A stretch of 64,000 nucleotides of DNA from Crossiella cryophila (GTDB lineage: Bacteria; Actinomycetota; Actinomycetes; Mycobacteriales; Pseudonocardiaceae). A model generated the notes under the pieces. That model was not told where the DNA came from. It searched no databases and saw only the letters and a program-made list of their open reading frames with translations. Below, in pieces: positions 2,073 through 50,196 of the stretch. The translations under genes and the position numbers were made by a program. The DNA lies in the NCBI RefSeq assembly GCF_014204915.1, contig NZ_JACHMH010000001.1, positions 4,675,501 through 4,739,500 on the forward strand, written 5' to 3'. Every line of letters begins with the position of its first letter. Position 1 is the stretch's first letter.

Positions 2073-2684
2073 TCACTCGCCGGAAAGGGTGCCGGGACTG
2101 GTGATGGCAGCCAGTGCCATTCGGCGCAGCAGGCCGGCCATCGCGGCCCGGTCCAGGTGCGCGCTGTGCGGGGTGGAGTTGAGCAGGCCGAACACCGCGT
2201 GCGCGGCGGCGCGGGCCGCCGGTTCGTCGTCCAGGTCGGGCACCGCCTGCATGATGACCCGGACCCACATCTCCACGTAGCGGCGTTGCAGGGCGCGGAC
2301 CTGGCGGCGGTCGCCCTCGGCCAGGTTGCCCAGGTTGCGCTCGTGCACGGTGATCAGCGCCCGGTTGTCCAGGGCGAAGTCCAGCTGCCAGTCGACCAGG
2401 GCGTTCAGCGCGGAGATCGGGTCGGGGGCGGTGGCCGCGCGGGACCCGCCGCCGTCGAGGAGCTTCTGGCTGATGTCCAGGAGCATCTCCCCGAGCATGG
2501 CGTCCTTGCTGCGGAAATGCCGGTACACGCCGGGGCCGCTGATGCCGACGGCGGAGCCGATGTCGTCGATGCCGACGCCGTGGAAGCCGTGCCGGGCGAA
2601 GAGTTCGGCGGCCGCGGCCAGGAGCTGTTCCCTGCGGGTCGGCCCACTCTGCCGGGTGGCTGCACTCGACGTCATGAGGGTCAT
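2073..2684 (-). CDS. TetR-family regulator of the adjacent acyl-CoA operon
   Basis: A 203-residue protein with an N-terminal TetR helix-turn-helix (REQLLAAAAELFARHGFHGV ... ISGPGVYRHFRSKDAML, about residues 19-65) and a helical ligand-binding C-terminus. It is divergent from the carboxylase operon at 2770, with an 85-bp gap holding two palindromic sites. The same arrangement, a TetR gene divergent from accD1-accA1-fadE, is known in mycobacteria (the Rv2506 region), where the operon serves leucine breakdown. I infer that it represses the operon and itself, released by an acyl-CoA. An ATG three codons inside the called start (2675) is an alternative. Confidence 0.88.
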   Translation of the reverse strand: MTLMTSSAATRQSGPTRREQLLAAAAELFARHGFHGVGIDDIGSAVGISGPGVYRHFRSKDAMLGEMLLDISQKLLDGGGSRAATAPDPISALNALVDWQLDFALDNRALITVHERNLGNLAEGDRRQVRALQRRYVEMWVRVIMQAVPDLDDEPAARAAAHAVFGLLNSTPHSAHLDRAAMAGLLRRMALAAITSPGTLSGE

Positions 2685-2697
2685 ACTAGCGCCGGAG

Positions 2698-2744
2698 GTT
2701 AGCGAGCGTTAACATCATGGCAGACCGTGTTAACGGCCGTTAAC
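2698..2744. promoter_or_regulatory. Paired palindromic operators in the TetR/accD1 divergent promoter region
   Basis: A perfect 16-bp palindrome GTTAACGGCCGTTAAC lies at 2729-2744 and a related imperfect copy GTTAGCGAGCGTTAAC at 2698-2713. Their starts are 31 bp apart, about three helical turns, so two dimers would bind the same DNA face. The position between the regulator and the operon fits TetR operators for both genes. Binding by this TetR is inferred. Confidence 0.7.
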
Positions 2745-2769
2745 TTTCAATGAGGAGAGTCCGGGCGAC

Positions 2770-4377
2770 ATGGATGTCCTGCGCAGCGCTGCCGACCCGA
2801 CGGCGGAGAGCTTCAAGCGCGCCGTCGAGGAGCACACCGCGCTGTCCGCCGACCTGCGCGACCAGCTCTCCCAGGCCCGCCAAGGCGGTCCGGAGCGGGC
2901 CAGGCAGCGGCACGTCGAACGCGGCAAACTGCTGCCCCGGGACCGGGTGGACGCGCTGGTCGACCCCGGTTCGCCGTTCCTGGAGCTGTCCCCGCTGGCC
3001 GCGCACGGCATGTACGACGGCGAGGCCCCGGCGGCCGGGATCATCACCGGCGTCGGCCGGGTCTCCGGGCGCGAATGCGTGATCGTGGCCAACGACGCCA
3101 CCGTCAAGGGCGGCACCTACTACCCGATGACGGTCAAGAAGCACCTGCGCGCCCAGGAAGTGGCGCTGCACAACAACCTGCCGTGCGTGTACCTGGTCGA
3201 CTCCGGCGGCGCGTTCCTGCCCCGCCAGGACGAGGTCTTCCCCGACCGCGAGCACTTCGGCCGGATCTTCTACAACCAGGCCACCATGTCCGCCCGCGGC
3301 ATCCCGCAGATCGCCGCCGTGCTCGGCTCCTGCACCGCCGGTGGCGCCTACGTGCCCGCGATGAGCGATGAAGCGGTGATCGTGCGCAACCAGGGCACGA
3401 TCTTCCTCGGCGGCCCGCCGCTGGTGAAGGCGGCCACCGGCGAGGTGGTCACCGCCGAGGAACTGGGCGGCGGCGACCTGCACTCGCGCACCTCGGGGGT
3501 CACCGACCACCTGGCCGAGGACGACGCGCACGCGCTGCAGATCGTCCGGTCCATTGTGGACACCCTCGGCCCTCGCCAGCCCAAGCCGTGGCGGATCGAG
3601 CCGAGCGAGGAGCCCCTGGCCGATCCCTCGGAGCTGTACGGCGTGGTGCCGGTGGACAGCCGAACCCCGTACGACGTGCGCGAGGTGATCTCCCGGATCG
3701 TGGACGGCAGCAAGTTCCACGAGTTCAAGCGGGAGTACGGACAGACCCTGGTCACCGGGTTCGCCCGGATCCACGGCCACCCGGTGGGCATCGTGGCCAA
3801 CAACGGCATCCTCTTCGGCGAGTCCGCGGTCAAGGGCGCGCACTTCATCCAGCTCTGCGACCAGCGGCAGACCCCGCTGGTGTTCCTGCAGAACATCTCC
3901 GGCTTCATGGTCGGCCGCGAGTACGAGGCCGGCGGCATCGCCAAGCACGGCGCGAAGATGGTCACCGCGGTGGCCTGCGCGCGGGTGCCCAAGTTCACCA
4001 TGATCATCGGCGGTTCGTTCGGCGCCGGCAACTACTCGATGTGCGGCCGGGCCTACTCGCCGCGGTTCCTGTGGATGTGGCCGAACGCGCGGATCTCGGT
4101 GATGGGCGGCGAACAGGCCGCCTCGGTGCTGGCCACCGTGCGCCGGGACCAGTTCGAGGCCAAGGGCCAGGACTGGCCTGCCGCGGACGAGCAGGCGTTC
4201 AAGGACCCGATCCGCGCCCAGTACGAGGACCAGGGTCACCCCTACTACTCGACCGCCCGCCTCTGGGACGACGGCGTGATCGACCCCGCCGACACCCGCA
4301 CCGTGCTCGGACTCGCCCTCTCCGCCGCCGCCAACGCGCCGATCGAGCCTGTCGGCTACGGCGTTTTCCGAATGTGA
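2770..4377 (+). CDS. accD1: Acyl-CoA carboxylase carboxyltransferase (beta) subunit, methylcrotonyl-CoA type
   Basis: The 535-residue product is a full-length biotin-dependent carboxyltransferase: an N-terminal domain with [17 protein letters not shown] and a C-terminal domain with the oxyanion-hole segments ([18 protein letters not shown] and [13 protein letters not shown]). It transfers carboxyl from biotin to the acyl-CoA. GYEAGGI-type sequence and the head-to-tail link to accA1 and an acyl-CoA dehydrogenase match the leucine degradation operon (3-methylcrotonyl-CoA carboxylase) rather than the acetyl/propionyl-CoA enzymes. Only 11 bases separate it from accA1. GAGGAG lies 12 to 17 bases ahead of the ATG. 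Substrate assignment is from context and remains an inference. Confidence 0.93.
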
Positions 4378-12514: not shown

Positions 12515-13639
12515 CTACTCCCGATCGGCGAGCAGATCCCACGGGTCACCATCCGTGTCGCTTGTTACCAGCACGACCAATCGGCCTGAGATATCCAAGG
12601 CCGTGCCCGGGTTCCCGTCTGTCCGCCGACTGACGCGGTCCACCATCTCGGATTGCTCCCCCGGCGACAAATCCTGGTGGAGGAGACCGAAGGCGAGCCG
12701 TCGATCCGCGCGGCCGAACAGGTCGAGTGGAGCCCATGCGCCGTGGAGGCGTCGTCCTGACACGCGGCGACCCACCGGAGGGGCGGTGGTGAACAGGGTC
12801 TCTTGGACACTGGCCACCTGGCCCTGTGCACGTTCAGCAAGCCATGAGACTGGAGTCCAGTCATCATTGGCGATCCCAACGGGATGATCCTGCCGCCAGG
12901 AATTTTGCTCGACCTGCGACTCGTTGGCCAGCACTCCCACCTTCTGCGACGTGCCGTCTGCGTCCTGTGCGGTGTCGTCAGCCTGGCCGGCTGGCTGACG
13001 TGGCTTGTTGCGAGGAACGAACAGATCCACGGTGATCTCCTGTTCGTTCGCATATGCCCAGCTCATGACGAACGGATGATCCTGGTGGTACTGGGACCAC
13101 CTCAGAAGCTCATCGAGACGTCTCAGATTGGCAGCCAACGCCCTCGACGGCGCCTTCCGGTAACGTCCCCTGGCCTCGCCGGCGAGTCGACGTTTGGGCC
13201 AGCCGAACAGCAGATCTGGCTTGATTCCTGGCTTCCGGTAGGATCTGCCCGGCCCGATCGGCAACGCGTCGAGATGATGCAGGGAGCCCCGGCGATGCCA
13301 ACGGCCGCTGGCCTCCACCGCGGCGGTGAGCATGGCCAGTCCCAGCGACTCCACCACGAAGTGTCGAATGTGATGAGAGCTGGTTCGTGTCACATCCGGA
13401 CGGAGTCGCAGCGGTCCGTCCAGGGGAGTGTCCAAATAGGACAGAAGAATCCGGGCTTCAGGGAAGTAGCTGTCGAACCGGGCTGGGCAGGATGTGGCCA
13501 GTGTGTTGATTCGGACCAGGCGAGCGATGTTGATGTCGATCTTGCGGGTTCGCGGCCTCAGCTCGGCCGAAATTCCTTCTACCCCAACCAGCTTGGGATC
13601 GACGGTCCAGACGAAGTCACGCAAGGTAACCGAGGCCAT
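12515..13639 (-). CDS. Unknown protein with a possible PD-(D/E)XK-like segment, atypical codon use
   Basis: A 374-residue soluble protein, not recognised. It opens MASVTLRDFVWTVDPKLVGV and contains KPDLLFGWPKRRLAGEARGR near residues 140-160. The spacing D-(x)n-E-x-R resembles the core of PD-(D/E)XK nucleases, with the usual Lys replaced by Arg; this is by eye and weak. The C-terminal third is rich in charged and polar residues. Codons such as ATT, GGA, TTG, CGA and CAT are much more frequent than in neighbouring genes, so it may have been acquired recently. It stands alone between the GGDEF gene and the nrd terminator. Confidence 0.6.
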   Translation of the reverse strand: MASVTLRDFVWTVDPKLVGVEGISAELRPRTRKIDINIARLVRINTLATSCPARFDSYFPEARILLSYLDTPLDGPLRLRPDVTRTSSHHIRHFVVESLGLAMLTAAVEASGRWHRRGSLHHLDALPIGPGRSYRKPGIKPDLLFGWPKRRLAGEARGRYRKAPSRALAANLRRLDELLRWSQYHQDHPFVMSWAYANEQEITVDLFVPRNKPRQPAGQADDTAQDADGTSQKVGVLANESQVEQNSWRQDHPVGIANDDWTPVSWLAERAQGQVASVQETLFTTAPPVGRRVSGRRLHGAWAPLDLFGRADRRLAFGLLHQDLSPGEQSEMVDRVSRRTDGNPGTALDISGRLVVLVTSDTDGDPWDLLADRE

Positions 13640-13703: not shown

Positions 13704-14780
13704 TCAGTCCCAGTCGAGCGCGCCACCGGTCTGGTACTCGATGACCCTGGTCTCGAAGAAGTTCTTCTCCTTCTTCAGATCCATCATCTCCGACATCCAC
13801 GGGAACGGGTTGTCCGCCTCCGGGAACACCGGGGTCAGGCCGATCTGGGCGCAGCGCCGGTTGGTGATGAAGTGCATGTACTGCTCGCACAGCTCGGAGT
13901 TGAGGCCGAGCAGGCCGTTGGGCATGGTGTCGCGGCCGTAGGCCACTTCCAGCTCGCAGGCCTCGCGGAGCATGGTGCGGATCTCGGCCTGGAACGCCTC
14001 GGTCCACAGGTGCGGGTTCTCGATCTTGATCTGGTTGATCGCGTCGATGCCGAAGTTCAGGTGGATCGACTCATCGCGCAGGATGTACTGGTACTGCTCG
14101 GCGATGCCGACCATCTTGTTCCGGCGGCCAAGAGACAGGATCTGGGCGAAGCCGGTGTAGAACCACATGCCCTCGAAGACCACGTAGAAGGCGACCAGGT
14201 CCCGCAGGAACGCCTGGTCCTTCTCCGGGGTGCCGGTGCTGAACTCCGGGTCCTCCAGGTTCTGCGTGTACTGCAGCGCCCACGCGGCCTTGTCCGTGAT
14301 GGACGGGACCTCGCGGTACATGTTGAACAGCTCGCCCTCGTCCAGGCCGAGCGATTCGCAGATGTACTGGAAGGTGTGGGTGTGCACGGCCTCCTCGAAG
14401 GCCTGGCGCAGCAGGTACTGGCGGCACTCCGGGTTGGTCAGGTGGCGGTACACCGCGAGCACGATGTTGTTGGCCACCAGGGACTCCGAGGTGGCGAAGA
14501 AGCCCAGGTTGCGCTTGATCGCCCGGCGCTCGTCGTCGGTGAGCCCGGTCGGGGACTTCCACAGGGCGATGTCGGCCTGCATGGAGACCTCGGTGGGCAT
14601 CCAGTGGTTGTTGCAGCCGGCGAGGTACTTGTCCCACGCCCAGTTGTACTTCAGCGGCAGCAGCTGGTTGACGTCGGCGCGACAGTTGATCATCGCCTTG
14701 TCGTCCACGCTGACCCGGCCGCCACTGCGGTCGATCTGGCCGAGGCCGGTGGCGTCCACGGAGGGTTCAAGGGCGGTCAC
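13704..14780 (-). CDS. nrdB: Ribonucleotide reductase small subunit, class Ic-like (Phe at radical Tyr site)
   Basis: The 358-residue R2 protein starts at a GTG overlapping the nrdA stop (GTGA). Metal ligands are visible: Glu99 (ATSESLV), Glu130 and His133 (EEAVHTHTF), a Glu in VFEGMWF and the Glu-His pair of RDESIH. Two positions differ from ordinary class Ia proteins: the ligand equivalent to E. coli Asp84 is Glu99, and the radical Tyr122 equivalent is Phe137. Both changes are the signature of Chlamydia-type class Ic R2 proteins, which use a Mn/Fe cofactor instead of a tyrosyl radical. The codons are clear (GAG at 14484-14486, TTC at 14370-14372 on the reverse strand). With nrdA it makes deoxyribonucleotides. 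The cofactor is inferred. Confidence 0.95.
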
Positions 14781-17611
14781 TGGCAGGCCTCGCAGTCCGG
14801 GTCGGTGATGGAGCAGGCCAGCGCCTCGGCGGCCTGGGCGGCGGCGGGGGAGACCGCGGCCGGGGCGGGCTCGGGCGCCACCAGCACGGGGGAGACGGCG
14901 TTGAGCTTGCCGTCGGTGCCGCGCAGGGTGGACTTCTCCACGTGCGTGGCGCTCTGCGCGCGCAGGTAGTACGTGGTCTTCAGGCCGCGCAGCCAGGCCA
15001 GCTGGTAGAGCGAGTCCAGCTTCTTGCCGCTGGGCTTGGCCATGTAGAGGTTGAGCGACTGGGCCTGGTCGATCCACTTCTGCCGCCGCGCCGCCGCCTC
15101 GATCAGCCATTCGCTGTCCAGCTCGAACGCGGTGGCGTACAAGGACTTCAGCTCGGCCGGGATGCGCTCGATGGCGCCGAGGCTGCCGTCGAAGTACTTC
15201 AGGTCGCCGATCATGACCTCATCCCACAGCCCGCGCTCCTTCAGCTCGCGCACCAGCTGCGGGTTGACCACGGTGAAGTCGCCGGACATGTTCGACTTCA
15301 CGTACAGGTTGCGGTACAGCGGTTCGATCGACTGGTTGACCCCGGTGATGTTGGCGATGGTCGCGGTCGGCGCGATCGCCATCACGTTGGAGTTGCGCAT
15401 GCCGACCTCGACCACGCGCGCCCGCAGCGTGTCCCAGTCCAAAGTGGACGAACGGTCCACCGCGAGGTCGCCTGCCCGGTTGTCGGCCAGGATCTGCACC
15501 GAGTCGATCGGCAGGATCCCCTTGCTCCACAGCGAACCGGGGAAGGACTCGTACGCGCCGCGCTCGGCGGCCAGCTCGGCCGAGGCCGAGATCGCGTAGT
15601 AGGAGATCTCCTCCATGCTGCGGTCGGCGAACTCCACCGCGCCCGGCGAGGCCATCGGCAGGCGCAGCGCGTAGAGCGCGTCCTGGAAGCCCATCAGGCC
15701 AAGGCCGACCGGACGGTGCCGCATGTTGGACCGGCGCGCCTCGGGGATGGTGTAGAAGTTGACGTCGATCACGTTGTCCAGCATGCGGACCGCGGTGCGC
15801 ACGGTCTTCTCCAGCCGGGCGTGGTCGATGCCGTCGGCGGTGATGTGCTGGGCCAGGTTGACCGAGCCGAGGTTGCACACCGCGACCTCGTCGATCGTGG
15901 TGTTCAGGGTGATCTCGGTGCACAGGTTCGAGGAGTGCACCACACCCGAGTGCTGCTGCGGGGAACGCAGGTTGCACGGGTCCTTGAAGGTGATCCACGG
16001 GTGACCGGTCTCGAACAGCATGGTCAGCATGCGCCGCCACAGGTCCTTGGCCTGCACCCGGCGGAACACCCGGATCTCGCCGCGGTCGGCGGCCGCCTCG
16101 TACTCGGCGTACTTGCGGGAGAACTCCAGGCCGTAGGCGTCGTGCAGGTCCGGGACCTCGTCCGGGGAGAACAGCGTCCACTGGCCGTCGGCGCGCACCC
16201 GGCGCAGGAACTCATCCGGCACCCAGTTCGCGGTGTTCATGTCGTGCGTGCGCCGCCGGTCGTCGCCGGTGTTCTTGCGCAGGTCGAGGAATTCCTCGAC
16301 GTCGATGTGCCAGGTCTCCAGGTAGGCGCAGACCGCGCCCTTGCGCTTGCCGCCCTGGTTGACCGCGACCGCCGTGTCGTTGGCGATCTTGAGGAACGGC
16401 ACCACGCCCTGGGACTTGCCGTTGGTGCCCTTGATGTGCGCGCCGATACCGCGCACCGGGGTCCAGTCGTTGCCCAGCCCGCCGGCGTACTTGGACAGCA
16501 GCGCGTTGTTGCTGATGCCGTGGAAGATCCCCTCCAGGTCATCGCCGACCGTGGTGAGGAAGCAGGAGGACAGCTGCGAGCGGGTGGTGCCCGCGTTGAA
16601 CAGCGTGGGGGTGGAGCACATGAAGTCGAAGCTGGAGATCAGGTCGTAGAACTCGATCGCCCGCGCCTCGCGGTCGTCCTCGCGCAGCGCCAGGCCCATG
16701 GCCACCCGCATGAAGAAGGCCTGCGGCAGCTCGTAGCGGACCTCGTCGCTGTGCAACAGGTACCGGTCGTAGAGGGTCTGCATGCCGAGGAACTGGAACT
16801 GCAGGTCGCGGTCGGCGACCAGGGCCGCGCCCAGGCGCTCCAGGTCGAACTTGGCCAGTTCGGTGTCGAGCTGGTCCAGCTCAACGCCGCGGCGGATGAA
16901 CTCGGCGAAGTAGACCGGGTACTGCTCGGTCATCTGCGCGTGGCTGGCCACCCGCTCCTCGCCCGCGAGGAAGCCGAGGGCCTCACCGCGTGCCTTGTCC
17001 AGCAGCAGCCGGGCGCTGACGTAGGAGTAGTTCGGGTCGTTCTCGACCATGGTGCGCGCGGCCATCACCGGCGCCACGCTCAGCTCGGCCGGGCTGATCC
17101 CGTTGTACAGGTTGCGCATGGTCTCGGCGAGCACGGTCTCCGCGGAGACCGCGGTCAGCCCGGCGCAGGACTCCTGGATCACCAGCGCGAGCCGCGCGGT
17201 GTCCAGCGGGGCCAGCGTGCCGTCGGCCTGACGCACCGAGAACTGCGGCGCGGCCTTGGGCGTGGACTCCGCGCGGGCCTTGGTGTGCTCCTCGCGGTAG
17301 AGCACGTAAGCGCGGGCGACCTTCTGGTGCCCGGCCCGCATGAGGGTCAGTTCGACCTGGTCCTGGATCTGCTCGATGTGCAGCGGCCGGTCCGGACCGG
17401 CGTGCCGCAACAGAGCCTGTTCCACCGACTGGGTCAGCTCGGCGATCTGTTCCCGTACGCGCGGCGAGGCGCCGGCGTCGGTGCCCTCCACGGCCAGCCA
17501 GGCCTTGGTCATCGCGACCGAGATCTTGCCCGACTCGAACGGGGACACCGCGCCGTTGCGGCGGATCACCGTGACCGCGCCCGGCGCGATCTCTGGCGAA
17601 TGCACTGACAC
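14777..17611 (-). CDS. nrdA: Ribonucleotide reductase large subunit with two ATP-cone domains
   Basis: The 944-residue R1 protein begins at GTG with [11 protein letters not shown]. An N-terminal ATP cone ([20 protein letters not shown]) is followed by a second cone-like unit ([20 protein letters not shown]), so allosteric control by ATP/dATP is expected. The catalytic barrel has [11 protein letters not shown] (Asn-x-Cys-x-Glu radical residues) and the tail ends in DCEACQ, a Cys pair for thioredoxin-type reduction. It pairs with the class Ic-like nrdB whose start overlaps its stop. A cobalamin riboswitch and an NrdR-like box precede it, so it should be shut off when coenzyme B12 lets a class II reductase do the work. 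Confidence 0.96.
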
Positions 17612-17715
17612 GAAAGCTGCTCCAAAATGTGTGCTGGGCGGACGAGGGCAGCGCCGGGCGACCGAGCACCCGGGTGCGGGTTCGGTTGCCGTCGCTGGGG
17701 AAGCTTGGTGAGGCG

Positions 17716-17757
17716 TTAGCTCTGAGGCTCGCTACAGCTCGCAGGCGATGCGGTCAT
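17716..17757 (-). CDS. Possible 13-residue leader ORF in the nrd 5' region
   Basis: Between riboswitch and nrdA a short frame reads MTASPASCSEPQS. A strong Shine-Dalgarno-like run GAGGAGAG lies about 10 bases upstream of its ATG. It may be part of the expression platform or a chance frame; no conservation data are available to decide. Confidence 0.25.
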   Translation of the reverse strand: MTASPASCSEPQS

Positions 17758-17901
17758 ACAGGTCGTCTCTCCTCGCGAGCGTCGGCGCCGATGGGCCGCG
17801 GAGTCAGAGGCAGGCGAGGGCCGACCGGGGCGCTGGTACGCCGCTCAGTCGTCCGCTCGGCCTTCCCACGAGACCGCGAACCGGGCACACCGTCGGTGCG
17901 C

Positions 17902-18119
17902 CCGCTGACGGCAGGTCTTCGGACTCGTGGGCGTGCCGGCCGAGGCCGGTCTCCTACTGGCCGTCGCTTCCCGGACCGTGGCGTCCAGTGCTGTACCGGC
18001 TCGATCGCTCGGCCGGTGACGGCGGTCGTTCCCACTCACCGCTGCGGGGCAGTCCCGGAGTCGCACCGGGTTCCCTGTTGCCTCACCGGGCGTTTGCGTG
18101 CCCGGTGAACCATCAGCGG
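17902..18119 (-). promoter_or_regulatory. Cobalamin (adenosylcobalamin) riboswitch upstream of nrdAB
   Basis: Read on the minus strand the conserved parts occur in order. The outer stem P1 is formed by CCGCTGA (18113-18119) and TCAGCGG (17902-17908). A hairpin with CACCGGGC and GCCCGGTG follows. The core GGGAACCCGGTGCGACTCC lies at 18057-18075 and CTGCCCCGCAGCGGTGAG at 18035-18052. The B12 box GAGTCCGAAGACCTGCC is at 17910-17926. This is the class known to switch off B12-independent ribonucleotide reductase genes in Streptomyces. About 290 bases of possible expression platform separate it from nrdA. Confidence 0.93.
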
Positions 18120-18124
18120 AACGG

Positions 18125-18169
18125 ATACTACATGTAGGGGTCCCCCGCGCAAGCGCGCCCAATATGGCC
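18125..18169 (-). promoter_or_regulatory. nrd promoter with NrdR-like boxes
   Basis: On the minus strand TTGCGC (18147-18152) and TAGTAT (18125-18130) are separated by 16 bases and would start a transcript right at the riboswitch. CTACATGTAG (18128-18137) matches the core of the NrdR box and overlaps the -10. A degenerate second copy, CAATATGGCC, lies 32 bp away at 18160-18169, the usual spacing of NrdR box pairs. NrdR binding is inferred. Confidence 0.55.
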
Positions 18170-18236
18170 GTGTTTTGCGTGTCGTGCAGACATGACACGA
18201 TGGGGGCTGACCGATCACGGTGCGTGGAGGTGTGTA

Positions 18237-19223
18237 GTGCGGGCATGGCGGGTGCACGAGCTGGGCGAGCCGCGGGATGTGCTCAAGCTGGACGAGGTTC
18301 CGGACCCGGTGGCAGGCCCCGGCCAGCTGCTGGTGAAGGTCCGGGCGACCGCGCTGAACTTCCCGGACGTGCTGATCTGCCGTGGTCAGTACCAGGTTCG
18401 CCCGCCACTGCCGTTCACACCGGGGGTCGAGCTTTGCGGTGAAGTGGTCGCGCTCGGTGAGGGCGCGACCGGCTGGTCGGTCGGCGATCGCGTCATCGCC
18501 ACCCCCGCGCCGCCCAACGGCGGACTTGCCGAATACGTCACAGTCAACGCGAACGAGGTGATCCCGGCGCCGGAGTCCCTCGACGACGCGCAGGCCGCCG
18601 GGTTCCACATCGCCTACCAGACCGGCTGGTTCGGCCTGCGCCGCCGGGCGGAGCTGGCCGAGGGCGAGACCCTGCTCGTGCACGCGGCCGCAGGCGGGGT
18701 CGGCAGCGCGGCCATCCAGCTGGGCAAGGCAGCGGGCGCCACGGTGATCGGCGTGGTCGGCGGCGCGCGCAAGGCCGAGGTGGCCAAGCAGCTGGGCGCG
18801 GACCTGGTGATCGACCGCAAGCAGGAGGACGTGATCGCCACGGTGAAGGAGTTCACCGGCGGCCGCGGCGTGGACGTGGTCTACGACCCGGTCGGCGGCG
18901 ACTCCTTCCGCGCCTCCACCAAGGTCATCGCCTTCGAGGGCCGGATCGTCATCGTCGGCTTCGCCAGCGGCGAGATCCCCAGCGCGGCGATGAACCACGC
19001 CCTGGTCAAGAACTACTCGCTGCTGGGCCTGCACTGGGGCCTGTACACGCACAAGGACCCGGCCTCGGTCCGCCAGGCGAGCCTGGAACTGGCCGCACTG
19101 GCCGATCAGGGCCTGCTCGACCCGCTGGTCGGCGAGCGGCTGCCACTGGCCGAGGCGCCAGCTGGCCTGCAACGACTCGCCGACGGCGACTCCGTCGGCC
19201 GGGTCGTGGTCACGATGGACTGA
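18237..19223 (+). CDS. NADPH:quinone oxidoreductase (zinc-less medium-chain dehydrogenase)
   Basis: The 328-residue protein has the quinone reductase pattern: an N-terminal GroES-like domain (RATALNFPDVLICRGQYQ, PGVELCGEVVALGEG) and a Rossmann domain with HAAAGGVGSAAIQLGKAAGA, the AAxGGVG nucleotide loop. The Cys/His residues that bind zinc in alcohol dehydrogenases are absent. It would reduce quinones or enones using NADPH in the cytosol. I chose GTG at 18237 because GGAGG lies 6 bases upstream; an in-frame ATG at 18192 lies inside the nrd promoter region. Its stop overlaps the start of the LysR gene (TGATG). Confidence 0.88.
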   Translation: MRAWRVHELGEPRDVLKLDEVPDPVAGPGQLLVKVRATALNFPDVLICRGQYQVRPPLPFTPGVELCGEVVALGEGATGWSVGDRVIATPAPPNGGLAEYVTVNANEVIPAPESLDDAQAAGFHIAYQTGWFGLRRRAELAEGETLLVHAAAGGVGSAAIQLGKAAGATVIGVVGGARKAEVAKQLGADLVIDRKQEDVIATVKEFTGGRGVDVVYDPVGGDSFRASTKVIAFEGRIVIVGFASGEIPSAAMNHALVKNYSLLGLHWGLYTHKDPASVRQASLELAALADQGLLDPLVGERLPLAEAPAGLQRLADGDSVGRVVVTMD

Positions 19224-39516: not shown

Positions 39517-41109
39517 GTGAGTGCGATCCAGTTGCTCCTGGTGGTCGTCGGCGCGATCGCGGTCACCGCGTTCGCCAGCCGCAAGGGCAGGCAGCCCGCG
39601 CTGGTCGTGGTGGTGCTCGCCTCGGCGATCTCGTTCATTCCCGGGCTGCCCCGCTTCGAGCTGGCGCCGGAGCTGATCCTGAGCGTGGTGCTGCCGCCGC
39701 TGCTGTACTCCGCGGCGCTGGACTTCTCCTTCGTCAGCTTCGCCCGCAACCTGCGGCCGATCCTGTCCCTTGGCATCGGTCTGGTGGTGGTCTCCACCGC
39801 GGTCACCGGGGTGGTCGCGGCCTGGGCGGTGCCGGGCCTGGCGCTGGTGCCCGCGTTGCTGCTGGGCGCGGTGGTGGCCCCGCCGGACGCGGTGGCTGCG
39901 CTGTCGGTGGGCCGGAAACTGGGGCTGCCGAAGAAACTCATGGCCATCCTGACCGGGGAGAGCCTGGTTAACGACGCCGCCGCGCTGACCCTGTTCACCC
40001 TGGCGGTGGCCGCCGCAACCGGCAAGGACACCCTGTTCGGCAACCCGTTCCTGCTCTTCGGCTACGGCGTGCTGGCAGGCGTGCTGATCGGCCTGGCCCT
40101 CGCGCTGGTGGTGCACTGGACCCGGTCCCGGTTGCGGGACAGCGGACTGGAGACCGCGCTCGGCCTGGTGGTGCCCTTCGCCGCCTACCTGCTCGCCGAG
40201 GAGGTGCACGCCTCCGGGGTGCTCGCGGTGGTGGCGGCCGGGATCGCCTTGGGGCACAACGACGCCAAGGCGTCCTTCGCCACCCGGTTGCAGGGCAGGC
40301 AGGTCTGGCGCAGCCTGGACGTGCTGCTGGAGGCGTTCGTCTTCGCCTACATGGGTTTGCAGTGCAAGTTCGTCTTCGCCGCACTGCCGGCCACCGGCAT
40401 CTCCTGGCAGGGCTTCGTGCTCGGCGCGGCCGCGGTGCTCGCGGTGGTGCTGCTGGTGCGCCCGGTGTGGGTGTTCCTGACCTACGGCCACGGGGTGCTG
40501 CGCGGCCGGATGACCGGCCGGAACTGGCGGCGGGGCAGACGGACCCGCCTGGTGCCGCACCAGCTGCCGTGGCAGTACATGGCGGTGATCTCCTGGACCG
40601 GCATGCGCGGCGTGGTCACCATGGCCGCCGCGGCCGGCGTGCCAGCGGGCCTGCCCGGCCGCGACCTCATCCAGGCCCTGGCCTTCGTCGTCGCGGTCGG
40701 CACCCTGCTCATCCAGGGCCCCACCCTGCCGTTGCTGATCCGCCGCCTGAACCTGGCCGCCCCCGAGGAGGAACGCCGGGCCGAATGGGGTGCGGCCAAG
40801 GCCAGGGACATCGTCCGGGAAGCCGCCCGCGACTCGCTCGGCACGGTCCCCGAGGGCGCCGATCCGGCGGTGTTCGGCCGGTTGCGGGAGAGGTTCACCA
40901 CCGCCCTGGCCGCCAGCCGCGAGTCCGACGAGACCCGGATGACCCCGGCCGAACGCGCACTCCTGCTCACCGTGCGCCAGCAGATGCTCGCCGCCCAGCG
41001 CACCGCACTGGTGCGGGCGCGCAAGGCGGGGGAGCTGCCCGACGACATCGTGCGCGGCGAGTTGGAACGCCTGGACCTGGAGGAGGCCGCGGCGGACGCG
41101 GCGCGTTAG
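39517..41109 (+). CDS. Na+/H+ antiporter, CPA1 family
   Basis: The 530-residue membrane protein has about 12 hydrophobic segments, beginning AIQLLLVVVGAIAVTAFASR. Ion-binding motifs typical of CPA1 are visible: GAVVAPPDAVAALSVGR and GESLVNDAAALTLF, where the ND pair is the cation site. A conserved ISWTGMRGVVTMAAAAGVP lies near residue 360. A hydrophilic C-terminus of about 110 residues may regulate. It exchanges cytosolic Na+ (or K+) for protons. The GTG start follows GGAG closely; the start is not certain. Confidence 0.92.
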   Translation: MSAIQLLLVVVGAIAVTAFASRKGRQPALVVVVLASAISFIPGLPRFELAPELILSVVLPPLLYSAALDFSFVSFARNLRPILSLGIGLVVVSTAVTGVVAAWAVPGLALVPALLLGAVVAPPDAVAALSVGRKLGLPKKLMAILTGESLVNDAAALTLFTLAVAAATGKDTLFGNPFLLFGYGVLAGVLIGLALALVVHWTRSRLRDSGLETALGLVVPFAAYLLAEEVHASGVLAVVAAGIALGHNDAKASFATRLQGRQVWRSLDVLLEAFVFAYMGLQCKFVFAALPATGISWQGFVLGAAAVLAVVLLVRPVWVFLTYGHGVLRGRMTGRNWRRGRRTRLVPHQLPWQYMAVISWTGMRGVVTMAAAAGVPAGLPGRDLIQALAFVVAVGTLLIQGPTLPLLIRRLNLAAPEEERRAEWGAAKARDIVREAARDSLGTVPEGADPAVFGRLRERFTTALAASRESDETRMTPAERALLLTVRQQMLAAQRTALVRARKAGELPDDIVRGELERLDLEEAAADAAR

Positions 41110-41130
41110 CACCCCGGTGCGGATGCCGGG

Positions 41131-41685
41131 CTAGGTGCTCGCGAGCGTGTACCGCGTTTCCAGCACGCCACTGGCGAGGGTTTTCGCGCCCGCGAGCCGG
41201 AGACCGACGTGGCCTGCCGGCAGGTCCATGTCCTGGAAGAGCCGAACCCCGGAGCCGACGATGATCGGCAGGACGCTGACGTTGAACTCGTCCAGCAGGC
41301 CGTTGCCCAGCAGCCAGCGCACCAGAGTGGGGCTGCCAAGGACCAGGATGTCCTTACCGGGCTGCCGCTTGAGCCGCGAGACCTGCTCGCGCAGGTCACC
41401 GCCGAGCACCGTGGTGCCGGGCCAACCGATCTCGGTCAGCGTCGTGGACACGACGTACCTGGTCGTCCCGTCCAGGAAGGCGACCATCGGTGAGTCCGGG
41501 TGCTCGACGCGGAGCGCGTCGTACCCCTGGTAGGAGTGCCTGCCCAGCAGCACGGTGTCGGCTCGGGCGAACCCGGCGGCGATCCCCGCGAACAGTTCCT
41601 CGTCGAAGTAGGCGAACTGCCATTGGTCGTCGGCCCCGACGATGCCGTCCAACGACATGAACAACCCGGTCACGATCTTGCGCAC
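41131..41685 (-). CDS. Dihydrofolate reductase-like (RibD C-terminal) protein
   Basis: A 184-residue protein starting at GTG (VRKIVTGLFMSLDGIV) after a strong GGGGAGGA. Motifs FMSLDGIV, TVLLGRHSYQGYDAL, ILVLGSPTLVRWLL and LLDEFNVSVLPIIVGSG are those of the RibD C-terminal/YyaP-like DHFR-fold family. These reduce various small substrates using NADPH; true folate reduction is not implied. It is the last gene of a leftward run beginning with a LuxR regulator. Confidence 0.85.
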   Translation of the reverse strand: MRKIVTGLFMSLDGIVGADDQWQFAYFDEELFAGIAAGFARADTVLLGRHSYQGYDALRVEHPDSPMVAFLDGTTRYVVSTTLTEIGWPGTTVLGGDLREQVSRLKRQPGKDILVLGSPTLVRWLLGNGLLDEFNVSVLPIIVGSGVRLFQDMDLPAGHVGLRLAGAKTLASGVLETRYTLAST

Positions 41686-41716
41686 GCGGTCCTCCCCGGT
41701 CAGGCCGTCCAGGCAC

Positions 41717-43066
41717 TCAGGACCGGAGCAACCCGTCCCGCCCGGCCACCCCGAGTTTGCGGTACACCTGCGACAGATGCAGCTCAACGGTCCTGGTCAC
41801 CACACCCAGCCGCGCCGCGATCTCCTTGTTGCTCAACCCGGCCCGCACCAGCGCCGCGATCCGCCCCTCCTGCCCGGTCAGCCGGGGCCCCGAGGTCCGG
41901 TGCGCCCACCGGGAGTTCCCGATCAGCCGGGCCGCCTCCCTGGCCGCGGTGAAGGCGTCCTCGGCCGCGAGCCGCTGCCCCCGTGCCGACAGCAACACCC
42001 CGAGGTCATGCCGGACCTGCGCCAGTTCCGCACCACGCACCAGATCCGCGGCCTCGGCGAGCTGGGCGGCGGAGTCCCAGCCGGCCGCGTGCAGGGCCAG
42101 CCCGATCGCCCGCGGACTGCCCCAGCGCCGGGCGGCGACCAGTTCCGCCCTGGCCAGCGAGGTGGCCAGGGGCGCGCGCTGCAACGCGTGCGCGCACAAC
42201 GCGGCCCGCGACCGCCAGGGCAGCACCGCCGGATTGACCACCGCCCACCCGTCCAAGGCCCGCCCGCAGGCGAGGAAGTCCTGATAGGCCAACGAGAACT
42301 GCCCCAGCGCCCGGTACAGCCCGCCCCGGGCGAAGAGCAGCTCGGCCCGGTCCGCCGCACTCGCCAGCCCACCATCCAGGCCGTGGTCCCGGAACAACTC
42401 CCGCGCCCGGTCCAGCTCACCGAGGTCCACCAGCGCCGCCGCCAGCCAGGCCACGGTCAATCCGGCGAACTGCGGGTGCACCCCGTTGCCCAGCAAGGAT
42501 TCCAGTGCCCGCACAGCCTGCCCCGGCGCGCCATTCCAGGTGTCCAGCCGCGCGGTGAGCAATACCAGCGAATCCCGCTGCCGGACCGACCCGGCCCAGC
42601 CCGCGGTCCGCGCCGCCCGGGCGCAGTGCTCCCGCGCCAGGCCCGGCTCCCCGGCGTAGGCCAGCGCCAGCACCGCGTACCAGAAACACCCGGGCTCCGA
42701 CCACGCCGCGGAGTCCAGCACCCGGCCTGCCAGCTCCACGCTGCCCGCCCGGTCCACCCCGCGATTGGCCAGCAGGATCGCCCGCATCGCCAGTTCCCGT
42801 TGCGGCGGCAGTGGTTCCGCCCGGTCCGGGCAGCGCGCCGACCCCGGCCGCGGCCCACCGGCCACATAGGACAGTCCAGCCAGCATCGGCCCGGTCACGG
42901 CCTCCTCGGCCAAGGCCCGGCCCAGCACCTCGGTGACCACCCGGTCCGCCTCGGCCCACCGGCCACCCTCGACCAGCCGCAACCGCAACGCCCGCGCGGA
43001 CTCGACCCATTCCTCCAGCATGGCCGGCCGATCCTCACACGCCCGAGACAGCACCTCAACCCCCAT
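41717..43066 (-). CDS. LuxR-family regulator with helical repeat domain (paralogue 1)
   Basis: The 449-residue protein is mostly helical repeats (TPR-like, about 1-370) and ends with a LuxR DNA-binding domain: LTGQEGRIAALVRAGLSNKE, then IAARLGVVTRTVELHLSQVY and RKLGVAGRDGLLRS. No receiver or ATPase domain is present. It is a clear paralogue of the protein at 44273-45718, with the same order of helices, but lacks that protein's glycine-rich insertion. The start ATG overlaps the end of the upstream gene by 11 bases. Confidence 0.85.
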   Translation of the reverse strand: MGVEVLSRACEDRPAMLEEWVESARALRLRLVEGGRWAEADRVVTEVLGRALAEEAVTGPMLAGLSYVAGGPRPGSARCPDRAEPLPPQRELAMRAILLANRGVDRAGSVELAGRVLDSAAWSEPGCFWYAVLALAYAGEPGLAREHCARAARTAGWAGSVRQRDSLVLLTARLDTWNGAPGQAVRALESLLGNGVHPQFAGLTVAWLAAALVDLGELDRARELFRDHGLDGGLASAADRAELLFARGGLYRALGQFSLAYQDFLACGRALDGWAVVNPAVLPWRSRAALCAHALQRAPLATSLARAELVAARRWGSPRAIGLALHAAGWDSAAQLAEAADLVRGAELAQVRHDLGVLLSARGQRLAAEDAFTAAREAARLIGNSRWAHRTSGPRLTGQEGRIAALVRAGLSNKEIAARLGVVTRTVELHLSQVYRKLGVAGRDGLLRS

Positions 43067-43571
43067 CCGTGACCGATACCGGCGCGCCCAGCAGCGCGTG
43101 CATGGTGAAACCGCCCTCCACCGGCCCGGCCCACCCGGACACCCCGAGGAACCCGCCGTCATCGCGCAGGAACAGATGCCCACCGGCCGCGCCAGGCCGC
43201 TCCAGCAACGAGGCCAGCCAGTCCAGCGCGGCGCTGACCCGGCCGAACGTGGTCAACGCGAAGCACACCGGCCGCACCGAGGCCCGGCCGACCTGGTCGA
43301 GCCGGTGATACCGCCGAGGTCCGGTCGAGTAGCCCGGCGCGCCGTCCAGTCCCCACAACGACCGCGGCTCAGCGGGTTCGGCCCACTGACTGCAGGCCAG
43401 CACCGAGGCACCGTCCACACTGGTCAGACAGGCGACGCCGAGCAGTTGTCCCGGCCACCGCAACCGCCGCCACCGGCGCACACAGTCACCGGCCGCGGCC
43501 TGCTGCCGAGCCTCACCGGTATGCGCCAACTCGAACTGCACCGACCGCACCCCAGGATCACTGATGATCAT
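43056..43571 (-). CDS. Hypothetical protein, possible ABM-like alpha-beta barrel
   Basis: The 171-residue protein begins MIISDPGVRSVQFELAH. Two similar halves can be discerned (RWPGQLLGVACLTSVDGASV with LACSQWAEP, and RPVCFALTTFGRV with LRDDGGFLGVSGWA), suggesting a duplicated ferredoxin-like or antibiotic-monooxygenase-like fold, but this is weak. It lies between the FMN reductase and a LuxR regulator that it overlaps. The start at 43571 lies 8 bases after the reductase stop. Confidence 0.6.
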   Translation of the reverse strand: MIISDPGVRSVQFELAHTGEARQQAAAGDCVRRWRRLRWPGQLLGVACLTSVDGASVLACSQWAEPAEPRSLWGLDGAPGYSTGPRRYHRLDQVGRASVRPVCFALTTFGRVSAALDWLASLLERPGAAGGHLFLRDDGGFLGVSGWAGPVEGGFTMHALLGAPVSVTDGG

Positions 43572-43579
43572 CAAGGCCC

Positions 43580-44173
43580 CTATCCGCCCAGGTAAGGCCG
43601 CATCGCCCGTGCCTCGCGTAACGCCAACGCCCACCACACCAACTCATCGAGCAACGTCCCCAACGCCGCCACCCCACCCCCTTGCTCCCGCGGCCGCCCA
43701 TGCTCGTCAAAGGCCAGCGCCCCACCGGGGAAGCTCACCGTGTCCCGCAACGCGACGGCCCGCAGCTCGGCGAACACCGACCGCAACTGCTCCACCGCCC
43801 GAACCCCACCCCCCAGCCCGCCTCCATGCGAGACGAACCCGACCGGCTTGGCCTGCCAGGGCAACACATGCCAGTCCAGGAAGTTCTTCAGCACCGCCGG
43901 GAAACTGTGGTTGTACTCCGGCGTGACCACCACAAAGGCGTCCGCCTCGGCCAGTCGAGGCGTGGTCTCGGCCAACGTCGCCGCGTCACCGGGCCCCGGA
44001 TCCCAGGTAGGCCCGGCCAAACTCAAGGGAATGGTCGCCAGATCGATCAGATCCAGACTCAACTCGGCCCGGTGCCCGGCCTGCCCACACACCCACTCGG
44101 CGACACTCCGGCTACGACAACCGGCCCGCGCGCTACCCACCAGCACGGCCACCCGAACGAGATCAGGGATCAT
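43580..44173 (-). CDS. NADPH-dependent FMN reductase-like flavoprotein
   Basis: The 197-residue protein has a flavodoxin-like fold: RVAVLVGSARAGCRSRSVAE (phosphate loop) and the family signature TPEYNHSFPAVLKNFLDW near residue 85, followed by KPVGFVSHGGGLGGGV. It would bind FMN and reduce quinones, azo compounds or free flavin. A consensus CRP-type operator lies 43 bases upstream of the ATG. It probably starts a unit that includes the hypothetical gene and the LuxR gene. Confidence 0.9.
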   Translation of the reverse strand: MIPDLVRVAVLVGSARAGCRSRSVAEWVCGQAGHRAELSLDLIDLATIPLSLAGPTWDPGPGDAATLAETTPRLAEADAFVVVTPEYNHSFPAVLKNFLDWHVLPWQAKPVGFVSHGGGLGGGVRAVEQLRSVFAELRAVALRDTVSFPGGALAFDEHGRPREQGGGVAALGTLLDELVWWALALREARAMRPYLGG

Positions 44174-44215
44174 GCCCCCAGTCACCCAGACCCAGCCCAC
44201 CCCAACCCCCGCTGA

Positions 44216-44231
44216 TGTGACCTGGGTCACA
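44216..44231. promoter_or_regulatory. CRP/FNR-type operator upstream of the FMN reductase gene
   Basis: TGTGACCTGGGTCACA is an exact match to TGTGA-N6-TCACA, the consensus of CRP-family regulators such as actinobacterial Crp/GlxR. The dyad extends one base on either side. No crp gene is in the window. Confidence 0.6.
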
Positions 44232-44272
44232 TGGACCCTTCGGTCCAACCGCAACCAGGCCCACGCGGAAGC

Positions 44273-45718
44273 TCAGAACATCGCGGACCGCAACCCATCC
44301 CGCCCGGAAATCCCCAGCTTGCGATAAGCCCGTGACAGGTGAACCTCCACCGTCCGCACGGCCAGCCCCAATCGAGCCGCGATCTCCCGATTGGCCCACC
44401 CATCCCGGGCCAACCGAGCCACCCGCTCCTCCTGCCCGGTCAACACCACCGCGGGCGCCAACTCCCGCAACGCCACCTCCGCCGCCCGAACCCGCCGCCC
44501 GTCCCCGACCAGCTCGGCCAGCCCCCGAGCCTGGGTGAGCCGCTCCCGCGCCCCCGCGATGTCCTGACGAGCGGCCAACCGAACCCCCAGCTCGTACTGC
44601 ACCACGCTCAGTTCATTGCGAGCCCGCGCCACCTCCAGCAGGTCGGCGGCCTCACTCAACAACTCCACCGCATCCACTCCCCACTGCCCCACGCTCCGCC
44701 CCCCAGTCCCGGCACCCCTGCCCTGCCCAGCCCCCACACTCATCCCCGCCATGCCACCCTGCCCAGCCCCCATCCTCATCCCCGCCGCGCCACCCTGCCC
44801 CGTGCCACCACCTCGCCCCGCCCCGTCGCCTGTCCCTACCAAGCCGCCGCCCCGCTCCACCATGTCCCCACCCAGCAGCACGACGCCCCCACCCGTGCCC
44901 CCCACCATCGCGACCGTGGCCAGCGCCGACCCCAGCACCCGCGGCTCACCCCAGCGCAACGCCGCCGCCCACTCCTGCCCCGCCAGCTCCACCGCCAGGC
45001 CCTCCCGCCGAGCCGCCAGCGCGGCCAGCGCCGCCCGGTTGCGCCACGGCACGATCGCCGGATTCGCCACCCCCTGCGCCAGGAACTCCCGCCCGCTGGC
45101 CAGGTAGTCCCGCAACCCCGCCTGCGCCCGCCCCGCCGCTATGTGCACCGCCGCCCGCGCCGCCAGCAGCATCGGCCGGCACGGCGAACGCCACTGCACC
45201 GCCGAGTCGAACTCGTGCTGGGCGAGCAACGCCTCCGCCCGGTCCACCGCCCCCACCCCGACCAGCACCTCGGCCAGCCAGCCCACCGACACCAACCGCA
45301 TCGGCCGCGGCACCACCTCGAGCGCGATCAACTCCTCCAGCTCCGCCCGCGCCCCGCCGAAGTCCCCACGCTGCACCGCGATCCGCGCCCGGACCCGCAA
45401 CATCATCGCCCGCCGCTGCGCCGCCCCGGCCAGCCGAGGATCAACGTCCTCGACCAGCCGTGCGCAGTGCGTGTCGGCTGCGGTCAGTTCCCCGGCGGAG
45501 GTCAGCGTCACCAGGGCCCGCCACACGCACAGTGGATCGTCCCGGCAGGGTGTCGTGGTCAGCGCGGCCTCGGCGAAACGCACCGAATCGGCCCAGTTCC
45601 GCCCCTGCACCATCAGTCCGGTCGCGCGCAAGGCCAGGCAGTCCTGATCGGTGACCGCTCCCGGCCACGGCGCGCCACTGGCCAACTCCCGTGACCGGTC
45701 CCCAGAGTCCGCGCGCAT
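44273..45718 (-). CDS. LuxR-family regulator with glycine-rich repeat insertion (paralogue 2)
   Basis: The 481-residue protein has helical repeats and a C-terminal LuxR domain (LTGQEERVARLARDGWANRE, IAARLGLAVRTVEVHLSRAY). About 70 residues around 275-345 are almost only Gly, Ala, Met, Arg and Gln (GMRMGAGQGGMAGMSVGAGQ) and interrupt the helical domain where paralogue 1 has a plain turn. The DNA under the insertion has a 36-bp tandem repeat starting at 44721, 44757 and (partly) 44793. It is divergent from the GXWXG gene. Function as regulator is likely, target unknown. Confidence 0.82.
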   Translation of the reverse strand: MRADSGDRSRELASGAPWPGAVTDQDCLALRATGLMVQGRNWADSVRFAEAALTTTPCRDDPLCVWRALVTLTSAGELTAADTHCARLVEDVDPRLAGAAQRRAMMLRVRARIAVQRGDFGGARAELEELIALEVVPRPMRLVSVGWLAEVLVGVGAVDRAEALLAQHEFDSAVQWRSPCRPMLLAARAAVHIAAGRAQAGLRDYLASGREFLAQGVANPAIVPWRNRAALAALAARREGLAVELAGQEWAAALRWGEPRVLGSALATVAMVGGTGGGVVLLGGDMVERGGGLVGTGDGAGRGGGTGQGGAAGMRMGAGQGGMAGMSVGAGQGRGAGTGGRSVGQWGVDAVELLSEAADLLEVARARNELSVVQYELGVRLAARQDIAGARERLTQARGLAELVGDGRRVRAAEVALRELAPAVVLTGQEERVARLARDGWANREIAARLGLAVRTVEVHLSRAYRKLGISGRDGLRSAMF

Positions 45719-45793
45719 TCCGCATGATATTCACACCGCAAGATCATCATGGTCGAATGGCACGATCGTGGACGCTCAACCGGAGAGGTCGGG

Positions 45794-46267
45794 ATGACGA
45801 ACATCGAGCGGGCACAGGCCAGGTTCCAGGAGTTGCGGAGCCGTAAGGACAAGGTCACCGCGGCGGAGCTGGACGAGCTGTGGGCGGAGTTGCCGACGGT
45901 GTCCGCCACCGAGATCACCGGCCGCTGGCAGGGCGATGAGTTCGTCACCGGCCACCCACTCAACGGTCAGCTGGCGGTGATCGGCTGGTACGGCAAGGAG
46001 TTCCACTCCCTGACCGACGTCAAGCCCCTGCTCTGCCGAGACGAGAGCGGCGAGCTGTACTCGAATGTGGAGGCGGGCAAGGGCGAGGCAAGCCTGTGGA
46101 ACGTGGAGTTCCGCGGCGAGGTCACCGCCACCATGGTCTACGACGGCCAACCCATCCTCGACCACTTCAAACGGGTGGACCAGCACACCCTGCTCGGCGT
46201 CATGAACGGCAAACAGGTCCTGACCCCCACCGGCGACCACTTCTACTTCTTCCTGGAACGCGCCTGA
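45794..46267 (+). CDS. GXWXG/DUF4334 domain protein
   Basis: The 157-residue protein starts MTNIERAQARFQELR after GGAGAGG. The central ATEITGRWQGDEFVTGHPLN contains the GxWxG signature and the C-terminus RVDQHTLLGVMNGKQVL matches the DUF4334 half. This is the normal architecture and length of the family, which is probably a lipocalin-like small-molecule binder. Its stop overlaps the start of the esterase gene (TGATG), so both are made together. Function unknown. Confidence 0.85.
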   Translation: MTNIERAQARFQELRSRKDKVTAAELDELWAELPTVSATEITGRWQGDEFVTGHPLNGQLAVIGWYGKEFHSLTDVKPLLCRDESGELYSNVEAGKGEASLWNVEFRGEVTATMVYDGQPILDHFKRVDQHTLLGVMNGKQVLTPTGDHFYFFLERA

Positions 46268-47721: not shown

Positions 47722-48367
47722 TCAATCCGGTCTCGTAGGCCACGATCACCAGCTGAGCCCGATCCCGCGCGTGCAACTTGCTCAGCAACCGCCCGATGTG
47801 CGTCTTCACCGTGGCCAGACTCAACCGCAGGTTCTGACTGAGTTCCACATTGGACAGACCACGGGCGATCAACGCCAACACCTCCCGCTCCCGCTCGGTC
47901 AACCCGTCCAGTTCCAGGGCCGGTGACTGCGCGGGTTCGGGCCGCCGCGCGAACTCCGAGATCAACCGCCGGGTCACACTGGGTGCCAGCAATGCCTCTC
48001 CACTCGCCACCACCTGGATGGCGTTGAGCAGCTCGGCTGGCGGAGTGTCCTTGAGCAGGAACCCACTGGCCCCGGCGCGCAACGCCGCGTAGACGTAGGA
48101 ATCCAGGTCGAAGGTGGTCAGGATCAGCACCCGGGGCACCGGTTCCGGCCCCGAGCACAACACCCGGGTCGCCTCGATCCCATCCATCTCCGGCATCCGT
48201 ACGTCCATCAGCACCAGATCCGGTTTCTCCCGCCGCGCCAGCTCAACCGCGGCAACTCCATCCTCAGCCTCGCCAACCACCTCCAGTCCCGGCGATGAGT
48301 CCACGAGCATCGCAAAACTCCCGCGCACCAACGCCTGATCATCGGCGATCACAACCCGAACACTCAC
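47708..48367 (-). CDS. NarL-family response regulator
   Basis: The 219-residue protein has a receiver domain (VVIADDQALVRGSFAML, phosphoacceptor Asp in VLMDVRMPEMDG, Lys in FLLKDTPP) and a LuxR/NarL helix-turn-helix (LTEREREVLALIARGLSNVE then LSQNLRLSLATVKTHIGRLL). Starts GTG 48367 or 48363. It forms a pair with the DesK-like kinase upstream, but a 184-codon orphan frame lies between the two. Targets may include the divergent ABC genes. Confidence 0.92.
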   Translation of the reverse strand: MSVRVVIADDQALVRGSFAMLVDSSPGLEVVGEAEDGVAAVELARREKPDLVLMDVRMPEMDGIEATRVLCSGPEPVPRVLILTTFDLDSYVYAALRAGASGFLLKDTPPAELLNAIQVVASGEALLAPSVTRRLISEFARRPEPAQSPALELDGLTEREREVLALIARGLSNVELSQNLRLSLATVKTHIGRLLSKLHARDRAQLVIVAYETGLISPR

Positions 48368-50030: not shown

Positions 50031-50196
50031 TCCCTCACCCTGCCACAGGTCCGCGGCCTTGCAATCGGCCCGAGGTCCGTCATACCCAGGTCTGACGGAG
50101 CGGCCTTTCCGGCCCTCGGACCAGACCACGGTCGGACGCCGAAGTCCAGGCCACGCTCCGATGTCGCCGGCCCTCGAATCCGGAACCGTGGTCGCC

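Follow-up and report, generated by a model that had tools for sequence, protein, structure and literature searches.

The nrdAB operon of Crossiella cryophila encodes a class I ribonucleotide reductase (RNR) whose small subunit is, by its sequence, of class Ic (Chlamydia type), and its leader carries a cobalamin riboswitch and a pair of NrdR-type boxes, in a genome that also encodes a B12-dependent class II enzyme, NrdJ. We propose that NrdAB is probably an O2-dependent Mn/Fe enzyme held in reserve for B12 shortage, as an alternative to NrdJ. The features lie in a stretch of 64,000 nucleotides (the window):

13704..14780, minus strand: nrdB, class Ic-type R2 (beta) subunit, 358 aa, GTG start
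14777..17611, minus strand: nrdA, class I RNR alpha subunit, 944 aa (NF005544, 1654.9 bits; PF02867, PF00317, PF03477)
17716..17757, minus strand: possible leader ORF of 13 codons, MTASPASCSEPQS, lying between the aptamer and nrdA and equipped with a good ribosome-binding site
17893..18129, minus strand: cobalamin riboswitch aptamer in the 5' leader of nrdAB (RF00174, 89.3 bits, full length)
18128..18137, minus strand: palindromic core CTACATGTAG of NrdR box 2, on the 5' edge of the aptamer match
18160..18169, minus strand: putative NrdR box 1 core GGCCATATTG, weak, with 3 mismatches to the pattern

NrdB has the residues of a class Ic R2 subunit

The window NrdB was aligned (MAFFT) with E. coli NrdB, the Saccharopolyspora erythraea R2 (6y2n) and C. 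trachomatis R2c (1syy, which we take to be the Chlamydia R2c, its row matching the 4d8f/4m1i group by eye). Of these structures, 4m1i is named in PMC11883743. The residues D84/E115/H118/Y122/E204/E238/H241 of the E. coli protein fall on E99/E130/H133/F137/E203/E237/H240 of the window protein, so that the set of six metal ligands is complete, with Glu (E99) in place of the first-helix Asp and the redox-inert F137 in place of the radical Tyr. From the letters alone, the first-pass annotation had read Glu99 for Asp84 and Phe137 for Tyr122 with the remaining ligands intact, counting back 31 residues from Glu130; the alignment confirms this reading, shows neither Asp nor Tyr at the two sites in NrdB, and gives the same spacing of 31 residues for E99-E130 as for D84-E115 in E. 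coli, so that the count was correct. NrdB is identical to the S. erythraea protein at 297 of 338 positions (88%), to 1syy at 195 of 339 (58%) and to E. coli NrdB at 76 of 326 (23%).

The similarity to the chlamydial protein extends to the relay: W51, Y222 and Y338 of R2c, the last of which we take to be an electron-relay residue, correspond to W60, Y232 and Y349 of the window protein, and F207 is the same residue in both. In Chlamydia R2c, Y222 and W51 relay the activation electron (PMC4118035). W60, Y232 and Y349 are kept in all of the 80 closest relatives (the best 80 of at least 566 encoding stretches) and in 29/29 further loci of the family. The Glu/Phe pair is likewise present in 80/80 and 29/29 of these loci, and is thus neither a chance occurrence nor a sequencing error.

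A quick maximum-likelihood tree with 142 rows placed every Glu-type R2, Chlamydia included, on one side (127 rows, SH-aLRT 99) and the Asp/Tyr-type proteins with E. coli NrdB on the other, so that the window NrdB groups with R2c and apart from the Tyr-type R2, in a tree that is midpoint-rooted, contains several extreme branch lengths and drew a warning from the program that long branches meet and may join falsely. The window clade comprises 112 rows (support 100), and within it 48 proteobacterial and acidobacterial rows form one group (support 99) nested among the actinobacterial rows, which suggests spread between phyla.

The assignment of NrdB to class Ic, as the first-pass annotation had it, is thus supported at the level of sequence by: (i) the ligands, (ii) the Phe in place of Tyr, (iii) W60, Y232 and Y349, (iv) the best PDB matches, (v) the NCBIfam model and (vi) the tree. 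Other R2 classes were considered and rejected. Class Id does not fit because A103 stands where a conserved Lys is expected, a place that we take to be four residues after the first ligand. This Lys lies close to the metals in class Id proteins (PMC8463856). Class Ib does not fit either, since NrdI (PF07972) has no match in the C. cryophila genome, the same model detecting NrdI in E. coli, B. subtilis and L. lactis. That NrdB could be an R2lox oxidase rather than an RNR subunit is suggested by the Phe that R2lox also has at the radical-Tyr site (PMC3824934) and by its four Glu ligands (PMC7239806), yet this reading is vanishingly improbable and is refuted by the sequence: nrdB lies in an operon with nrdA, NrdB keeps both the C-terminal Tyr349, which R2lox has lost, and F207, between the metal sites, where R2lox has Ala (PMC7239806), and the genome encodes elsewhere two other R2-like proteins (L082 and L083) in which Ala replaces F207 and no Tyr aligns with Y349.

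A riboswitch and NrdR-type boxes precede nrdAB

nrdB overlaps nrdA by 4 bases. In addition to an N-terminal ATP cone, NrdA contains both of the domains that are usual for a catalytic subunit. The aptamer upstream of nrdA covers positions 1-189 of the RF00174 model, above the gathering score of 31.5, and is one of seven cobalamin aptamers over threshold in the genome. Box 1 sits 32 bases upstream of box 2, and a box pair with this spacing is found in 15 of the 19 actinobacterial relatives that have the riboswitch (mean of 0.11 and maximum of 2/19 in 200 mononucleotide shuffles); the scan used a pattern that we take to be that of NrdR boxes. The NrdR of S. coelicolor binds a pair of boxes spaced by about three helix turns (PMC9110341). 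The putative regulation of nrdAB by a B12 riboswitch and NrdR boxes is a feature that the first-pass annotation missed.

The peptide of the possible leader ORF is identical in Crossiella sp. L001. At 15 other loci a candidate nrdA start, judged by its ribosome-binding site, occurs at a like distance, 96-158 bases past the aptamer. A scan of 17560-18260 found neither a sigma-70-like promoter nor an intrinsic terminator.

The neighbours of nrdAB that were scanned are a GGDEF/HD protein, a zinc-type dehydrogenase, a LysR regulator and one protein without a Pfam match; the 374-aa reading frame directly downstream of nrdB (12515-13639, minus strand) had no Pfam match at E 0.001. Intein-like insertions occur at one site of the class I NrdA in Nocardiopsis halophila (L031, about 2165-3244) and Actinosynnema sp. 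(L032, about 2317-3444), with weak Hint matches and a LAGLIDADG domain.

nrdAB is the only class I RNR found in the genome

Elsewhere in the genome, a B12-dependent class II nrdJ (NF005122, 1596.9 bits) adjoins nrdR (TIGR00244, 163.2 bits) with a 4-base overlap, and the 16 kb around nrdR-nrdJ contain no cobalamin aptamer over threshold. nrdAB, of class Ic sequence type, is the only class I RNR found in this genome, and the same pattern holds more widely: each of 31 actinobacterial genomes (that of the window and 30 relatives) has exactly one R2 over the cut-off and no second class I R2, the next match scoring at most 31.3 bits on a model that gives about 260 bits to an Asp/Tyr R2. Since there is one R2 per genome, class Ic seems to replace class Ia rather than to accompany it, and since the class Ic protein is the sole class I R2 in 31/31 genomes, the Ia and Ic enzymes seem to fill a single regulatory slot.

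Three weaker R2-like matches were seen in the C. cryophila genome. L082 (G000:C1:1717091-1717837) is R2lox-like and L083 (G000:C1:2399893-2400558) is more distant; Ala takes the F207 position in both, and neither shows a Tyr that aligns with Y349. The third and weak match, L084, does not match the alignment profile.

The Glu/Phe R2 is common in the family

Class Ic R2 appears to be widespread in the family rather than a rarity. The NF005550 cut-off was passed in 165 of the 297 genomes of the family, among them 5/5 of the genus (that of the window included), and the 29 other family loci that were read, the best-scoring among the family matches, all carry Glu/Phe. Placed by score, 31 more family genomes have a best match at E 1e-76 to 1e-84, the range of Asp/Tyr-type proteins. 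L001 (Crossiella sp.) shows 96% identity, and its R2 is identical, in the tree rows, to that of a same-genus genome. The best 80 of the at least 566 encoding stretches come from Actinomycetota, Pseudomonadota and Acidobacteriota. In a phylum-wide spread of 396 genomes, 15 pass the NF005550 cut-off, and the 30 loci taken from that search comprise the window's own, 12 other Glu/Phe, 3 Glu/Leu and 14 Asp/Tyr proteins; the Asp/Tyr group includes a large-genome group (f5/g8) that we infer to be Streptomyces. The Glu/Leu proteins (L100-L102, from genomes G100, G292 and G078 of the same phylum) combine the Glu ligand with Leu at the place of the radical Tyr.

The riboswitch recurs before class Ic operons and is shared with Asp/Tyr operons

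Among the 80 class Ic loci that are the best of at least 566 encoding stretches, an aptamer over threshold on the plus strand precedes nrdA in 59 of 77 loci, from three phyla (12/13, 4/13, 11/14, 9/13, 12/13 and 11/11 by batch), three loci having been left out of the search because their upstream flank was cut; the other 18 of the 77 have none over threshold before nrdA. nrdA lies between the aptamer and nrdB in 59/59, its match beginning 95 to 419 bases past the aptamer. Of the actinobacterial class Ic loci, 11/30 have no riboswitch over threshold before nrdA. Five Amycolatopsis loci (L055, L059, L061, L065 and L079) likewise have no aptamer over threshold at this position; in four of them, L065 being the exception, an aptamer lies downstream of nrdB instead, at a distance of 0.1 to 1.7 kb.

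In the phylum sample, 23 of the 35 top-scoring genomes besides the window's (18/18 and 5/17) have an RF00174 match that exceeds the gathering score and lies within 4 kb upstream of nrdB, on the strand of that gene. By R2 type, these are 10 of 15 genomes with a Glu-type R2, 8 of 14 with a site-checked Asp/Tyr R2 and 5 of 6 genomes taken as Asp/Tyr by score only (G161, G193, G246, G023, G182 and G199). A riboswitch specific to class Ic is thus rejected: because it also precedes Asp/Tyr nrdAB, the switch belongs to the class I operon generally. In G100, one of the genomes with a Glu/Leu R2, the aptamer lies directly before nrdB.

NrdJ itself scores over the model cut-off in 28 of the 30 actinobacterial genomes; in that of L028 it is in pieces and in that of L008, which bears the riboswitch, none was found. 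It was also found in 36 of 46 other genomes, mainly proteobacterial. In this mainly proteobacterial batch NrdJ tracks the riboswitch (34/39 with it vs 2/7 without, Fisher p=0.003, ignoring kinship), but in the actinobacterial genomes it does not (18/19 vs 11/11, L028 counted as present and kinship again ignored). Since NrdJ is present in actinobacteria with or without the riboswitch, the association of the two is not general. Five riboswitch-bearing genomes of the mainly proteobacterial batch (those of L007, L041, L046, L073 and L077) have no whole canonical NrdJ match. In the genomes of L026, L029 and L041 (G739, G741 and G746), a short divergent class II-like RNR match in an open frame of 640-743 aa replaces the canonical NrdJ, and in G703, G711, G718 and G720 (L040, L059, L071 and L030) long insertions in frame, which may be inteins, interrupt the NrdJ matches.

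A proposed role for NrdAB in B12 shortage

In the mechanism that we infer, for the metals, the redox cycle, the direction of riboswitch control and the physiological role alike, NrdB would take up Mn at site 1 and Fe at site 2 independently of NrdI. The metallated protein would react with O2 and then receive one electron via Y232 and W60, reaching a resting Mn(IV)/Fe(III) state. This cofactor, rather than a tyrosyl radical, would draw an electron from the catalytic Cys of NrdA along a relay that includes the C-terminal Y349. NrdAB would be an alternative to the class II NrdJ that depends on O2 and needs no B12. An abundance of adenosylcobalamin would lower nrdAB expression through the leader riboswitch, and when dATP is high, NrdR, encoded beside nrdJ, would repress it. 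Such a scheme has precedents. Adenosylcobalamin acts on the riboswitch of Streptomyces nrdABS, and NrdAB was suggested to serve when adenosylcobalamin is lacking (PMC4991794); for nrdDG and other isozymes, it is an established proposal that a B12 element turns off the enzyme that does without B12 whenever the vitamin is available (PMC545781).

The roles of the two enzymes could be reversed, with NrdAB as the main aerobic RNR and NrdJ as an auxiliary. The actinobacterial class Ic loci without a riboswitch over threshold before nrdA (11/30) would suit such an arrangement, which we consider unlikely here: it is nrdA that follows a full-length aptamer in the window, the 16 kb surrounding nrdJ contain no aptamer over threshold, and the NrdJ of S. 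coelicolor has been described as the primary RNR during vegetative growth (PMC4991794). The metals could also differ from those proposed, the class Ic ligand set holding Fe/Fe or Mn/Mn, given that the first isolated Chlamydia R2c contained di-iron (PMC4118035). Against this, the first-sphere and relay residues that were examined are identical to those of Chlamydia R2c in a protein of 58% identity, and Ala103 occupies the presumed place of the class Id Lys, so that another metal pair appears decidedly improbable.

The first-pass annotation had offered a different reason for the presence of a class Ic enzyme, namely that its metal-based oxidant resists radical scavengers, to the profit of an organism that lives with or makes radical-quenching compounds. 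A hypothesis of this kind has been published for Chlamydia, with a lower sensitivity to certain scavengers, NO among them, and stability towards H2O2 (PMC4118035). However, the claim of resistance is too strong, since hydroxyurea reduces the Chlamydia cofactor (PMC8463856, PMC11883743). The locus lends the idea no support either: the 20 other window proteins scanned with Pfam do not suggest a natural-product cluster for radical quenchers or any other link to scavengers. Moreover, R2 proteins over the model cut-off occur in 165/297 family genomes and recur in alphaproteobacteria and acidobacteria. That class Ic was kept for resistance to scavengers or oxidants which the organism makes or meets is thus quite unlikely, and the B12 riboswitch, the NrdR-type boxes and NrdJ give a better-grounded role, that of a reserve enzyme for B12 shortage.

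Relation to known systems

Three known systems resemble parts of the C. cryophila locus. The S. erythraea R2 (6y2n), an actinomycete R2 with a solved structure (PMC7467353), shares the Glu/Phe pair; the passages on it name neither a class nor metals, and its N-terminus lies outside the compared stretch. C. trachomatis R2c (1syy, 4m1i) shares the ligands, Phe127, W51, Y129, Y222 and Y338, and the window genome also has a class II NrdJ, a B12 riboswitch and NrdR-type boxes, the comparison with Chlamydia covering the R2 protein. The S. coelicolor nrdABS operon shares the layout, with NrdR boxes and a B12 riboswitch before nrdAB and nrdRJ elsewhere (PMC4991794, PMC9110341); unlike in the window, the R2 read in six genomes of group f5/g8, the presumed Streptomyces, is of Asp/Tyr type, with 32-34% identity to the window protein.

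Class Ic R2 proteins in actinomycetes are already known, as sequences of Actinobacteria and Alphaproteobacteria in a clade with the chlamydial R2c (Lundin 2010, cited in PMC3824934) and as Ic-like nodes marked in a published similarity network (PMC8463856), and B12-dependent isozyme switching has already been proposed. What is added here is that the putatively B12-switched isozyme, in C. cryophila as in many other genomes, belongs by its sequence to the class Ic type. The combination of class Ic with a B12 switch was not found in the open-licence literature searched; the class Ic passage in PMC4428469 deals with M. tuberculosis Rv0233 and not with a riboswitch.

It is tempting to generalise, and we lean towards the view that class Ic commonly supplies the B12-repressed backup RNR of Actinomycetota, Alphaproteobacteria and Acidobacteriota, Ia and Ic operons being swapped in a single slot defined by NrdR boxes and a B12 riboswitch. 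If true, ordinary bacteria that lose the cobalt cofactor would turn to a Mn/Fe enzyme for DNA synthesis, which is contrary to the view that places class Ic mainly in pathogens and extremophiles. Through the link between class Ic and the B12 riboswitch, hosts other than Chlamydia become available from strain collections, in which varying B12, cobalt, manganese and iron may reveal what the Mn/Fe cofactor is for. In annotation, an nrdAB operon under a B12 riboswitch should not be equated with class Ia unless the two residues have been checked.

Away from nrdAB, the GC skew is negative (to -0.24) over positions 40001-52000 of the window, and the proteins scanned in this interval include the products of three minus-strand regulator genes, two of LuxR type and one histidine kinase.
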